Positions 3,498 through 10,667 of a DNA stretch of 64,000 bases are shown piece by piece. Made by a program: the position numbers and the translations under genes. Origin of the DNA: an uncultured Pelagibacteraceae bacterium (GTDB lineage: Bacteria > Pseudomonadota > Alphaproteobacteria > Pelagibacterales > Pelagibacteraceae). The stretch is from assembly GCA_902624075.1 (NCBI GenBank), contig CACNWC010000001.1:92120-156119 (forward strand). The letters run 5' to 3'. Within the stretch, counting starts at the first letter, position 1, and each line of letters begins with the position of its first letter. The notes under the pieces were generated by a model. That model had not been told where the DNA came from and searched no databases. It saw only the letters and a program-made list of their open reading frames with translations.

Positions 3498-4016
3498 TTA
3501 GGTTAATTCTCGAGCAAATTCATCTACTTTTGACCAGTCTGTAAATTCGTAAGATTGTGATGTGTCTGTAGGACCGTTTGTTAAAAACATAATAAATTTA
3601 ATGACATATTTGTCAAAAAAACCATAATTTGGATAATCTACTCTACCAGCAAACACACCAATTTTTTTTGGTTTCCAATTAGAGATCTTTAGAAATTTTT
3701 TAATATAAGGATTGGTCTCAGGGGTATTTTTTTCTGGTTTTCTAGCAACAACATTTACTGAAAAAAAAATGCTTTGTTTTTGATCTAATACACTTTTATT
3801 AATGGTAATAAATTTATAAAGTTTTTTAGAATGTTTCCCATATCTAATACTTGCTCCAATAATGATTTTATTAAAGCTAGATAAATCAATCTTTGTTGCC
3901 TCATCCAAAGATATGATTTTAATGTCATTTTTGCTATTTAAAAAATTTGATATTCGTCTACAAATAGTTTCTGTATGGCCATCTGTTGTAGAATAAATTA
4001 TCAAAGTATTGCACAT
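3498..4016 (-). CDS. hemG: flavodoxin-type protoporphyrinogen IX dehydrogenase (HemG-like)
   Basis: ORF; IIYSTTDGHTETICRRI flavodoxin motif, IIIGASIRYGKHSKKL, FFSVNVVARKPEKNTPETNPY; next to hemH. Confidence 0.8.
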   Translation of the reverse strand: MCNTLIIYSTTDGHTETICRRISNFLNSKNDIKIISLDEATKIDLSSFNKIIIGASIRYGKHSKKLYKFITINKSVLDQKQSIFFSVNVVARKPEKNTPETNPYIKKFLKISNWKPKKIGVFAGRVDYPNYGFFDKYVIKFIMFLTNGPTDTSQSYEFTDWSKVDEFARELT

Positions 4017-5139: not shown

Positions 5140-6141
5140 TTAATAATCTTTCACCATTTTTACTAAATAATCCATTTTATCAGGTTCTGTCTCTGGTAAA
5201 ACTCCATGTCCTAAATTGAAAATATAAGGATGATCTTTAAATATATCCAGGTATCTTTTTGCCTCTTTTTTTATAATTTCTTTATCAGTTAATAGAATCT
5301 TGGGATCCAATCCTCCTTGAACTGGTATTTTTATTTCTTTTCTAATTATTAAAGGATCAACATCATAATCTATACAAATAGTGCTGGGTTTTATAATTTC
5401 ACAATAATTTTTGTAATCTTTAATTCCTCTAGGAAAACATATAACAGGAACATTAAGTGATTTAGTAAATTCTACTAAAGATGAAGTTGGATTATAGATA
5501 TATTTATAAAAATCTTTTTCTTTTAATAATCCTGCCCAACTATCAAAAATTTGAATAATTTGTGCTCCATTATCAACTTGATATTTAATATGAATCTTTA
5601 AAAATTTATCTAATATATTCAATGTTTCTCTGATCATTATTTCATCATCAAAAAAATTATCCACCAACTTCAATTTAGGAGATTGTCTATTAATCATATA
5701 AACCAATAAAGTCCAAGGTGCGCCCACGAAACCTATAGTATCTTTGTTTTTTACCATTTCATTATTACTAACTAATTTCAATGATTCATAAACTTCATAT
5801 ATATTTTTTACAAAATCGACTTCATTTAATTTTGAAATTTCATTCAAATTTAGTTCTCCTAACAGCGGTCCGAAATCCTTTTTGAATTCTACTTTTTGAC
5901 CCAAGCCATAAGGTAACATTAAAATATCAGAAAAAATTATAGCAGCATCTAATTCAAATCTTTTTAAAGGCTGAAGTGTAATTTCAGAAGATAACTTCTT
6001 GTTTAAACATAATTTTATAAAATCAGGATTTTTTTTTCTAATTTCTCTAAATTCTGGTAAGTATCTCCCAGCTTGTCTCATTATCCATATAGGATTAATG
6101 TTAGTTTTATTTTTGTATATTACTTCTCTTATTGGTGACAT
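5140..6141 (-). CDS. hemE: uroporphyrinogen decarboxylase
   Basis: ORF; PIWIMRQAGRYLPEFRE, AAIIFSDILMLPYGLG, IQIFDSWAG, FNLGHGVLPETEPD. Confidence 0.96.
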   Translation of the reverse strand: MSPIREVIYKNKTNINPIWIMRQAGRYLPEFREIRKKNPDFIKLCLNKKLSSEITLQPLKRFELDAAIIFSDILMLPYGLGQKVEFKKDFGPLLGELNLNEISKLNEVDFVKNIYEVYESLKLVSNNEMVKNKDTIGFVGAPWTLLVYMINRQSPKLKLVDNFFDDEIMIRETLNILDKFLKIHIKYQVDNGAQIIQIFDSWAGLLKEKDFYKYIYNPTSSLVEFTKSLNVPVICFPRGIKDYKNYCEIIKPSTICIDYDVDPLIIRKEIKIPVQGGLDPKILLTDKEIIKKEAKRYLDIFKDHPYIFNLGHGVLPETEPDKMDYLVKMVKDY

Positions 6142-6422
6142 ATTAATAATTAAATATAATTAATAGTATTAGTAGTATAAATTGTGAATAACGATAATTA
6201 AATTTTGTAAACATTTTATGAACTACTTGTTAACATTTAGAACTTAAAAATAACAAAATATATTAGATAAATTGAAGCTAATTAACGAAATCAACAAAAA
6301 CCATATAAACTTTATACAATGTTTAAAAATGTTAATAAAAGCCTTGTTTTACAATGTAAATTTTAAAATGTTAAAATATTAAAATATGATTTAAATAATT
6401 AAAGATTACCAACAGTTTATAC
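6142..6422. other. oriC: putative chromosomal replication origin (oriC) between hemE and ppsR
   Basis: 281-bp very AT-rich intergenic gap; exact DnaA-box consensus TTATTCACA (as TGTGAATAA, 6183-6191), several TTATACA near-boxes; hemE/ppsR flanks as at Caulobacter oriC; genes diverge from this point. Confidence 0.7.
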
Positions 6423-7247
6423 ATGAATTATACATATCAAATATATTTAATTTCTGATTCTACGGGTGAAACTCTAGATAGAATTTTTTTAGCTATAAAA
6501 GCACAATTTCAAAACATTGATTACAAAGTTCATACATATTCTTTTACAAGAACCGAAAATCAAGTTTTAAAAATTTTAGATGATGCTGAAAATAATAAAA
6601 ATTCAGTTATTTTATATTCAATAGTTGACACCAATTTAGCAAAATATTTAGCCAACACGAGCGATAACAAAAAAATTCCATGTTTTGGTGTATTAGGAAA
6701 TTTGATACTTAGTTTTTCAAAATTATTAAATCAAAAAGCGTCTCATCAGCCAAGTGGCCAACATGTTTTAAATGATGAATATTATAAAAGAATAGAAGCA
6801 ATACAATTTACGATGAATCATGATGATGGAAATTTGGTTAAAGAAATAAGTAAATCGGACATTATATTGCTAGGAGTTAGCAGAACCAGCAAAACACCAA
6901 CATCTATCTATCTGGCCAACAAAGGATTTAAAACATCAAATATACCTTTAGTTAATGAAAATTCTCTTCCTCAAACCCTTAAAGACAATCCTAAAATTTC
7001 ATGTGTTGTGGGACTAAATACAGAGCCAGAAAGGTTGGCTGACATTAGAAAAAATAGAATGAATTCATTAAAAGAAACTCAAAATAAATCTTATACCAGT
7101 TTAGAAAAAATAAAAAAGGAAGTGGAAGATGCCAAAAAAACTTTTAGAAAATATAAATGGCCAATGATTGATGTAACAAGAAAATCAGTTGAAGAAACGG
7201 CAGCTTCAATTATAAAAATTTACGAAATATACAAACAGAATGGTTAA
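6423..7247 (+). CDS. ppsR: pyruvate, phosphate dikinase regulatory protein (PEP synthase regulatory kinase/phosphatase, PpsR/PDRP)
   Basis: ORF; YLISDSTGETLDRI, ILLGVSRTSKTPTSIYLANKG, RKSVEETAASI. Confidence 0.92.
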   Translation: MNYTYQIYLISDSTGETLDRIFLAIKAQFQNIDYKVHTYSFTRTENQVLKILDDAENNKNSVILYSIVDTNLAKYLANTSDNKKIPCFGVLGNLILSFSKLLNQKASHQPSGQHVLNDEYYKRIEAIQFTMNHDDGNLVKEISKSDIILLGVSRTSKTPTSIYLANKGFKTSNIPLVNENSLPQTLKDNPKISCVVGLNTEPERLADIRKNRMNSLKETQNKSYTSLEKIKKEVEDAKKTFRKYKWPMIDVTRKSVEETAASIIKIYEIYKQNG

Positions 7248-9184: not shown

Positions 9185-9846
9185 AGGAAATCGTACTAGA
9201 TACTGAAACAACTGGTATATCGGTGAAAGAAGGCCATAGAATAGTTGAGATAGGGTGTATTGAGCTTAATGATTTAATACCAACTAAAAAAAAATTTCAT
9301 TGCTTTTTAAATCCTGAAAGAAAAGTTTCTGAAAAAGCATTAGAAGTTCATGGTTATACTGATGAATTTTTATCAAAAAAAAAAAAATTCTATGAAATTG
9401 TAGAAGAATTTTTAGATTTTATTAGAGGTAAAAGATTAATAATTCACAACGCAGAGTTTGATCTTTCACACATTAATAATGAATTAAAAATATTAGGTAA
9501 AAATATTATTGAAAATGAAGTTGTTGATACTTTAATTTTAGCAAGAAATAAATTTCCAGGTTCATCAATAAGTTTAGATGCGCTCTGCAAAAAATATAGG
9601 ATTGATAACTCTAAAAGAACTCAACATACTGCTTTAATTGATTGCGATCTATTAGCTAAAGTTTATATAAATTTAATTGATCAAAAAGAACCTAAATTAG
9701 ATTTTCAGTCAAAAGAAATAGAAAGTAATTTCAAAGAAAATAGAAATATTTTATATTTTAAAAAAATTGTAAAAATAACAGAACAAGAAAGGCAAGAACA
9801 CGCAAATTTTTTAAAAAAGAATTTAAAAAAAAATTTTTTTAATTAA
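9181..9846 (+). CDS. dnaQ: DNA polymerase III epsilon subunit (3'-5' exonuclease)
   Basis: ORF; IVLDTETTGISVKEGHRIVEIGCIEL, LIIHNAEFDLSHIN, HTALIDCDLLAKVY. Confidence 0.93.
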   Translation: MKEIVLDTETTGISVKEGHRIVEIGCIELNDLIPTKKKFHCFLNPERKVSEKALEVHGYTDEFLSKKKKFYEIVEEFLDFIRGKRLIIHNAEFDLSHINNELKILGKNIIENEVVDTLILARNKFPGSSISLDALCKKYRIDNSKRTQHTALIDCDLLAKVYINLIDQKEPKLDFQSKEIESNFKENRNILYFKKIVKITEQERQEHANFLKKNLKKNFFN

Positions 9847-10267
9847 ATTTTCTATTATAAAGTTCTTCGAAATCAATTTTCTTTTCAAATTTGATTCCCG
9901 GATAACCTGAATTGTTAAGTAAATCTAAAAAGGCTTTTTCTAAATCTGGATAAATTTCTTTTTGAGCCTCACAAAGAATGATTTTTTCTAAATCTTTTTT
10001 ATCTTTTATACTTTCATCAACTTTTATAATTGTTGCAAAAATTATTTCAAAAAATGCTTTTTTTTTACTATTATTTTTGTCTTCAAACTTAAGAACTGTA
10101 TTAATCTCAACAATCTTATCTTTCAATGCTTTAGATGTTATTTCAATATTTAAATGATATTTTGAAATATTATCCTTTACAAATAAGTAAGTTTCAATGT
10201 CAGGAGTTTCGCTAGATAAATCTTTTACAAATTTACTTAAAATTTTATAATTTTTTGTCATTGTCAT
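9839..10267 (-). CDS. secB: protein-export chaperone SecB
   Basis: ORF; YKILSKFVKDLSSETPDIETYLF, divergent SecB; synteny beside dnaQ as in other alphaproteobacteria. Start may be internal ATG (10261). Confidence 0.8.
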   Translation of the reverse strand: MTMTKNYKILSKFVKDLSSETPDIETYLFVKDNISKYHLNIEITSKALKDKIVEINTVLKFEDKNNSKKKAFFEIIFATIIKVDESIKDKKDLEKIILCEAQKEIYPDLEKAFLDLLNNSGYPGIKFEKKIDFEELYNRKFN

Positions 10268-10667
10268 TTTCTATATCTTCAAACTCGCCATCTATAAAGT
10301 TTTCATTGTTTCTTTTTGGTTTAACATTTTTAGAAAATTTTTTTAGAAGAATTTTTCTTGTTATCGGAAATATAAGTAGAAATCCGATTGTATCTGTAAC
10401 AAATCCTGGCATCATTAACATTAAAGCAGCAAAGGCTATTGCTGCTCCAGATATAATCTCATAAGCAGGTAGCTCATTTTTGATAATTTGAGAAATACCT
10501 GATTTAATTGTATTTAAACCCTCATATCTTGCATAGAATACACCGACAATGGCAGTAATGAATATTAATGAAATTGTATAAAAAGCCCCAATCTGTGAGC
10601 CAATTTTTATAAAAAGGTAAATTTCAATTATTGGTATTAAAATTATGGAAAATATAACTGAGTTCAT
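10245..10667 (-). CDS. fxsA: FxsA family membrane protein
   Basis: ORF; IPIIEIYLFIKIGSQIGAFYTISLIFITAIVGVFYARYEGL, MLMMPGFVTDTIGFLLIFP. Confidence 0.88.
   Translation of the reverse strand: MNSVIFSIILIPIIEIYLFIKIGSQIGAFYTISLIFITAIVGVFYARYEGLNTIKSGISQIIKNELPAYEIISGAAIAFAALMLMMPGFVTDTIGFLLIFPITRKILLKKFSKNVKPKRNNENFIDGEFEDIENDNDKKL

Follow-up and report, generated by a model that had tools for sequence, protein, structure and literature searches.

The hemE-ppsR intergenic gap as the very probable replication origin of a Pelagibacteraceae (SAR11) genome

At which point does chromosome replication begin in SAR11 bacteria, whose cells rank with the most abundant in the ocean? Estimates of growth from metagenomes (peak-to-trough ratios) require a known origin. 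A literature search, beyond whose reach most subscription papers lay, found no paper that names a SAR11 oriC; in one study the terminus was inferred from coverage, and neither dnaA nor hemE turned up when the main text was searched for these terms (PMC9589681). The origins of Caulobacter crescentus (Cori) and Rickettsia prowazekii (ori) lie between hemE and a gene of the COG1806 family (PMC1914354), in agreement with the original prediction for the locus analyzed here, which pointed to a Caulobacter oriC beside hemE and a ppsR-type gene and proposed that the gap between these genes is the oriC of a streamlined lineage. We examined this gap in a 64-kb window, i.e., the whole stretch of DNA analyzed (C1:92120-156119), which belongs to a draft Pelagibacteraceae genome of 1.02 Mb in 34 contigs (~87% complete).

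Results

The longest ORF-free stretch of the window lies between hemE and ppsR

The gap and its two flanking genes are as follows.

5140..6141, minus strand: hemE, uroporphyrinogen decarboxylase, flanking the gap (TIGR01464 above cut-off)
6142..6422, no strand: hemE-ppsR intergenic gap, the very probable oriC region, 281 bp, 84.0% AT
6423..7247, plus strand: ppsR-type regulator of the COG1806 family, flanking the gap (NF003742 above cut-off)

The AT-rich gap, which had been described as one of the largest in the window, measures exactly 281 bp and is the largest of all, the runner-up being 184 bp; its AT content compares with 72.2% for the window as a whole. NCBIfam matches at the locus comprise hemE, hemH, the ppsR-type regulator, a Maf-family protein, coaE and dnaQ. 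The ORF strands bear out the predicted divergence, in that all six ORFs to the left of the gap point leftward and ppsR, maf, aroE, coaE and dnaQ point rightward, and two leftward genes (9839-10667) follow the rightward series. The hemE product is at most 81% identical to those of Pelagibacteraceae and Candidatus Pelagibacter single-cell and isolate genomes, and the source genome encodes an intact DnaA. An Rfam search of positions 6000-6600 returned zero matches.

Two further observations concern the neighborhood. One gene between rho and hemH (3498-4016, minus strand) encodes a flavodoxin-type protein whose domain, PF12724, is of the HemG type; it occupies the place that corresponds to HemJ in a Sinorhizobium meliloti record, and it is possible that one protoporphyrinogen oxidase was swapped for another at the rho-hemH locus. 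In addition, a short frame of ~190 aa with an OmpR-type DNA-binding domain (G000:C1:75756-75965) is situated ~22 kb from the gap, and its counterpart is found 12-20 kb from hemE in most complete relatives.

The gap and its DnaA boxes are conserved among relatives

Among 104 hemE loci of the family, 102 included both hemE and ppsR and were used as the gap set. The two genes are divergent in every one of these, and the gap is 261-289 bp long (median 282, sd 5.3) with an AT content of 79-88%. Its length is constant although the identity of hemE drops to ~54% among the relatives; the median spacing of genes in the complete relative G003 is 2 bp. Alignment of the family gaps defined four box positions, which are listed with an adjacent site.

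6183..6191, minus strand: DnaA box 1, TTATTCACA (TGTGAATAA on the plus strand), the sole exact copy in the window
6192..6200, plus strand: CGATAATTA, directly behind box 1, at the position of CGGGGAT(TA) in other alphaproteobacteria
6227..6235, plus strand: box 2 position, degenerate in this genome (TTGTTAACA), relatives' consensus TTATTAACA, from the family alignment
6330..6338, minus strand: DnaA box 3, TTATTAACA, with TGTTAATAAAA conserved in the family alignment
6406..6414, plus strand: box 4 position, degenerate in this genome (TTACCAACA), relatives' consensus TTATTAACA, from the family alignment

Two of the four conserved boxes are therefore intact in this genome. By the standard of this one sequence, the evidence from boxes is weak: shuffling gives P values of 0.015 for the single exact TTATTCACA, 0.028 for the two copies of TTATN[CA]ACA, and 0.009 for the three copies of TTATACA (6312, 6417 and 6428, the last inside ppsR), and the source genome as a whole shows no enrichment of the box motif. 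The evidence gains its strength from the relatives, in whose 102 gaps TTATTCACA occurs 61 times against 1.3 expected and TTATN[CA]ACA 317 times against 21; the boxes are kept in both number and place, where a lack of conservation would have spoken against the original prediction. The exact box that it had noted at 6183-6191 is thus real, present once in 64 kb and conserved. The TTATACA near-boxes do lie at the three predicted positions, but the importance attached to them mostly falls away, since this motif reaches just 74 copies against 38.8 expected (1.9x) in the same gaps. The conserved site at 6330-6338 had been overlooked, as had the triplet array at 6155-6178 described below. As for the site behind box 1, ATTA within 6192-6200 is conserved in the family alignment, the class sequences at the corresponding place read TGTGGATAACGGGGAT, and the site, ranked 15th on contig C1 by a class-derived PWM, might be a weak second DnaA box.

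Two conserved elements other than boxes were also observed. A second block in the middle of the gap (6262-6282; consensus AAAATTgAAGCTTaTTa) matches no DnaA box and is a putative protein site, and TTTATACATG at 6415-6425, directly before and over the start of ppsR, is conserved only within the genus, not elsewhere in the family.

The gap was then compared with the other intergenic regions that measure 120 bp or more. With the pattern TTATN[CA]ACA, which was widened after the alignment had been inspected, the gap of G003 holds four boxes, while none of the other 149 regions holds more than one; on contig C1, which carries dnaA, the gap has two boxes and the other 27 regions have none; and the gap ranks first, with four, three and four boxes, in the 400-kb samples taken from G026, G078 and G063, respectively. 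With the strict pattern TTATNCACA, the gap of G003 ties with one other region.

A strand-specific triplet array adjoins box 1

On the hemE side of box 1, separated from it by a 4-bp spacer, the plus strand carries a TATAATAATAGTATTAGTAGTAT-like array.

6155..6178, plus strand: DnaA-trio-like array, TAT GAT GAT TAT GAT AAT TAA TAT, read 3' to 5' from the box

The array consists of eight NAN triplets, three of which are GAT, and its trio score of 10.5 compares with 6.0 for the 99th percentile of shuffles. The family alignment shows AGTATTAGTA.TATA to be conserved in this region. The shuffle 95th percentile of the score is reached by 65% of the 102 relatives' gaps, and a strict call of three trios fails in 16 of them. 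Runs of at least four TA[GT] triplets occur on the array strand in 30% of the relatives, on the other strand in 0% and in 1.7% of shuffles. In the R1/DUE region of Escherichia coli, the box and the unwinding region have the same relative orientation. The arrangement resembles the basal unwinding system (BUS) of Bacillus subtilis and other bacteria in having a box, a short spacer and at least three adjoining NAN triplets (PMC6669920, PMC8287927). The rules given for the BUS allow up to two mismatches in the box and a spacer of up to 16 bp, and ask for at least three NAN trios (PMC8287927); here TTATTCACA has one mismatch to TTATCCACA, the spacer is 4 bp as opposed to the commonest 10-13 bp, and there are eight trios.

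In two lineages, namely G009 of the same family (L235) and the distant class member G199 (L262), a rho-like gene rather than hemE faces ppsR, and triplet-plus-box elements nevertheless persist beside ppsR (TTAGTTTTGTTATTAG..TGTTTATAATGGGGTTAATTA and TAAGTAGTAGGTACGGGGGATAACGGGGATTAA, respectively), which argues that the element is not a hemE promoter. This finding bears on the rival explanation that the gap merely serves hemE and ppsR as a bidirectional promoter region, its length kept by regulation. The genes do diverge, their promoters necessarily lie within the gap anyway, promoter-like matches number nine against 4.5 expected, and among the divergent gaps of G003, 15 of 157 equal or exceed it in length. 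A promoter region would, however, leave the enrichment of boxes, the strand-specific triplets and the skew switch described below unexplained as well as the persistence of the element where rho replaces hemE, and we consider it very improbable that the gap is nothing else. The best match to hemE elsewhere in the genome of G009 is only ~31% identical, and part of haem synthesis was possibly lost in its SAR11 genus.

Strand-corrected skews switch at or near the gap

Raw cumulative GC skew was tried as a locator and given up because it is too gene-driven: on contig C1 the gap does not coincide with a clear extremum, and in G003 the minimum, at 97.9 kb, is ~31 kb from the gap toward dnaA. In its place, third-position GC and TA skews of ORFs were modelled as the sum of an effect of gene strand and an effect of replication arm, in a joint fit of G003 as a whole and samples of G026, G078 and G063 (20 x 20 kb each, ~30%). 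The sign was fixed, because an unsigned fit could swap origin and terminus, and that of TA was taken from the data. The joint optimum for the four relatives is at +10 kb, on the ppsR side of the gap, a distance not resolved by the fit; the gap itself is 2.4 lnL units below the optimum, dnaA (about -60 kb) 15, -100 kb 21 and +100 kb 37. GC skew by itself puts the origin at 0 to +10 kb. A skew minimum elsewhere in the genome had been named as evidence that would contradict the original prediction; the strand-corrected switch falls between 0 and +10 kb relative to the gap, and dnaA is rejected. The cumulative GC-skew maximum of G003, at 675 kb, is nearly opposite the gap, whose antipode is at 667 kb, and 60-67% of genes are co-oriented with the inferred forks.

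The position of the joint optimum might be taken to indicate that replication starts at another site within ~20 kb on the ppsR side. The 10-kb displacement is, however, no larger than the resolution of the fit (~10 kb), none of the other intergenic regions compared on C1 (120 bp or longer) has a box, and the class-wide synteny described below is centered on the gap, all of which makes such a site even less probable than a promoter-only gap. Least probable of all is an origin beside dnaA with the gap as its relic, for which dnaA-linked origins are common in other bacteria and the raw skew minimum of G003 falls between hemE (67 kb) and dnaA (130 kb), but which fits the joint skews ~12 lnL units worse than the gap and finds no box on C1, where dnaA resides, in any intergenic region of at least 120 bp besides the gap. 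The distance between dnaA and the gap is consistent across genomes (61-64 kb).

The gene context extends across the class

Of 28 ppsR loci that come from the class's other families, 27 have a divergent hemE next to ppsR, and a Sphingomonas record reads hemE // ppsR-maf-aroE-coaE. The gaps at these loci are mostly 340-570 bp long, with a GC content below that of the surrounding locus. Their hemE-side end often has a run of TNG triplets adjoining a CCTGTGGATAACGGGGAT-like sequence. Four or more such triplets in a row are found in 30% of 27 class gaps, as opposed to 0% for the opposite strand and 0.6% of shuffles, and, in a later check of 18 further genomes of one order, in 78% (opposite strand 0%, shuffles 0.7%), with A, T or G as the middle base in 24, 23 and 16 cases, respectively. 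Unlike the NAN triplets of the BUS, those of many alphaproteobacteria outside SAR11 are TNG (3'-GNT-5') with a middle A, T or G.

A profile HMM built from the class sequences of the trio-box core was tried as a detector and did not recover the SAR11 gap, and an 18-mer PWM ranked the site in the gap third in G003, second in G078, fourth in G026, eighth in G063 and 15th on C1. These results make homology of the SAR11 core sequence to that of the remaining class no more than suggestive, and it is the gene context that carries the link.

Discussion

The gap at 6142-6422 is very probably the oriC of this SAR11 genome, of the hemE-ppsR type, and the original prediction was right about both its place and its meaning. 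The basis of this verdict is observed, namely position, conservation, box enrichment, triplet geometry and the skew switch, and from it we infer that DnaA binds the gap, that the DNA opens there and that firing is bidirectional. In the mechanism that we propose, DnaA would occupy as many as four conserved boxes, of which this genome has two intact, and would be loaded from box 1 onto the adjoining triplet array (6155-6178), stretching that strand. The AT-rich duplex beside hemE would then open, with the opening predicted to start at 6155-6178, and two forks would depart, one along hemE-rho and the other along ppsR-dnaQ.

The DNA-opening element of the origin appears to be conserved across the class, in a form that is slightly unusual. 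In B. subtilis, the middle adenine of the trio contacts Asn187 of DnaA; cytosine substitutes for it better than guanine or thymine, either of which impairs the origin as the middle base, and the authors who described the BUS suspected that trios without a middle adenine exist (PMC8287927). Alignment to B. subtilis DnaA (8btg) places Tyr at the position of Asn187 in SAR11 DnaA, whereas the positions that serve the outer bases carry the same or a conservatively replaced residue (Asn196 to Asn, Arg202 to Lys and Glu228 to Glu). The residue at the Asn187 position is Tyr also in Paracoccus, Trp in Sinorhizobium and Shinella, Phe in Sphingomonas, Gln in E. coli and Asn in Bacillus. It is conceivable from these sequences that alphaproteobacterial origins, including that of SAR11, carry a class-specific DnaA-trio, which would be the deviant trio suspected in PMC8287927: outside SAR11, 3'-G..T-5' would be kept around a middle A, T or G and read by a DnaA with an aromatic residue (Tyr, Trp or Phe) at the Asn187 position, and SAR11 would keep the middle A with G relaxed to G/T. 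Because the sample is small and phylogenetically uncorrected, the Rhizobiaceae examined have no clear TNG run, the DnaA proteins of Paracoccus and Sphingomonas have Arg at the Asn196 position, and SAR11 retains the middle A, we put this forward as a tentative hypothesis whose chances are slightly short of even. The class-wide triplet array makes the existence of trios without a middle adenine directly testable.

The hemE-ppsR origin type is already known, and the SAR11 gap is an added member. The conserved hemE-ppsR anchor provides a fixed origin even in fragmented SAR11 genomes, in which tools that equate the origin with dnaA would be ~62 kb off. The gap shares with Caulobacter Cori and Rickettsia ori its hemE and COG1806 flanks and an AT-rich sequence with DnaA boxes, but it is 281 bp long, as compared with the >400 bp stated in PMC1914354, and the SAR11 boxes read TTATTMACA instead of the TGATCCACA of Caulobacter. 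Pairs of CtrA half-sites (TTAAN7TTAA) occur 0.45 times per SAR11 gap against 0.30 in shuffles, an excess that is not significant. S. meliloti (CP090106) shares the order rho-hemJ-hemE // ppsR-maf-aroE, and its record begins just past hemE; its gap is 405 bp long, the hemE end of the gap is without a clear TNG run, and dnaA is 412 kb away. That record and two others (NZ_CP104131 and NZ_CP069303) are listed as plasmids and resemble main chromosomes, being 3.5-4.6 Mb in size and carrying dnaA and hemE-ppsR.
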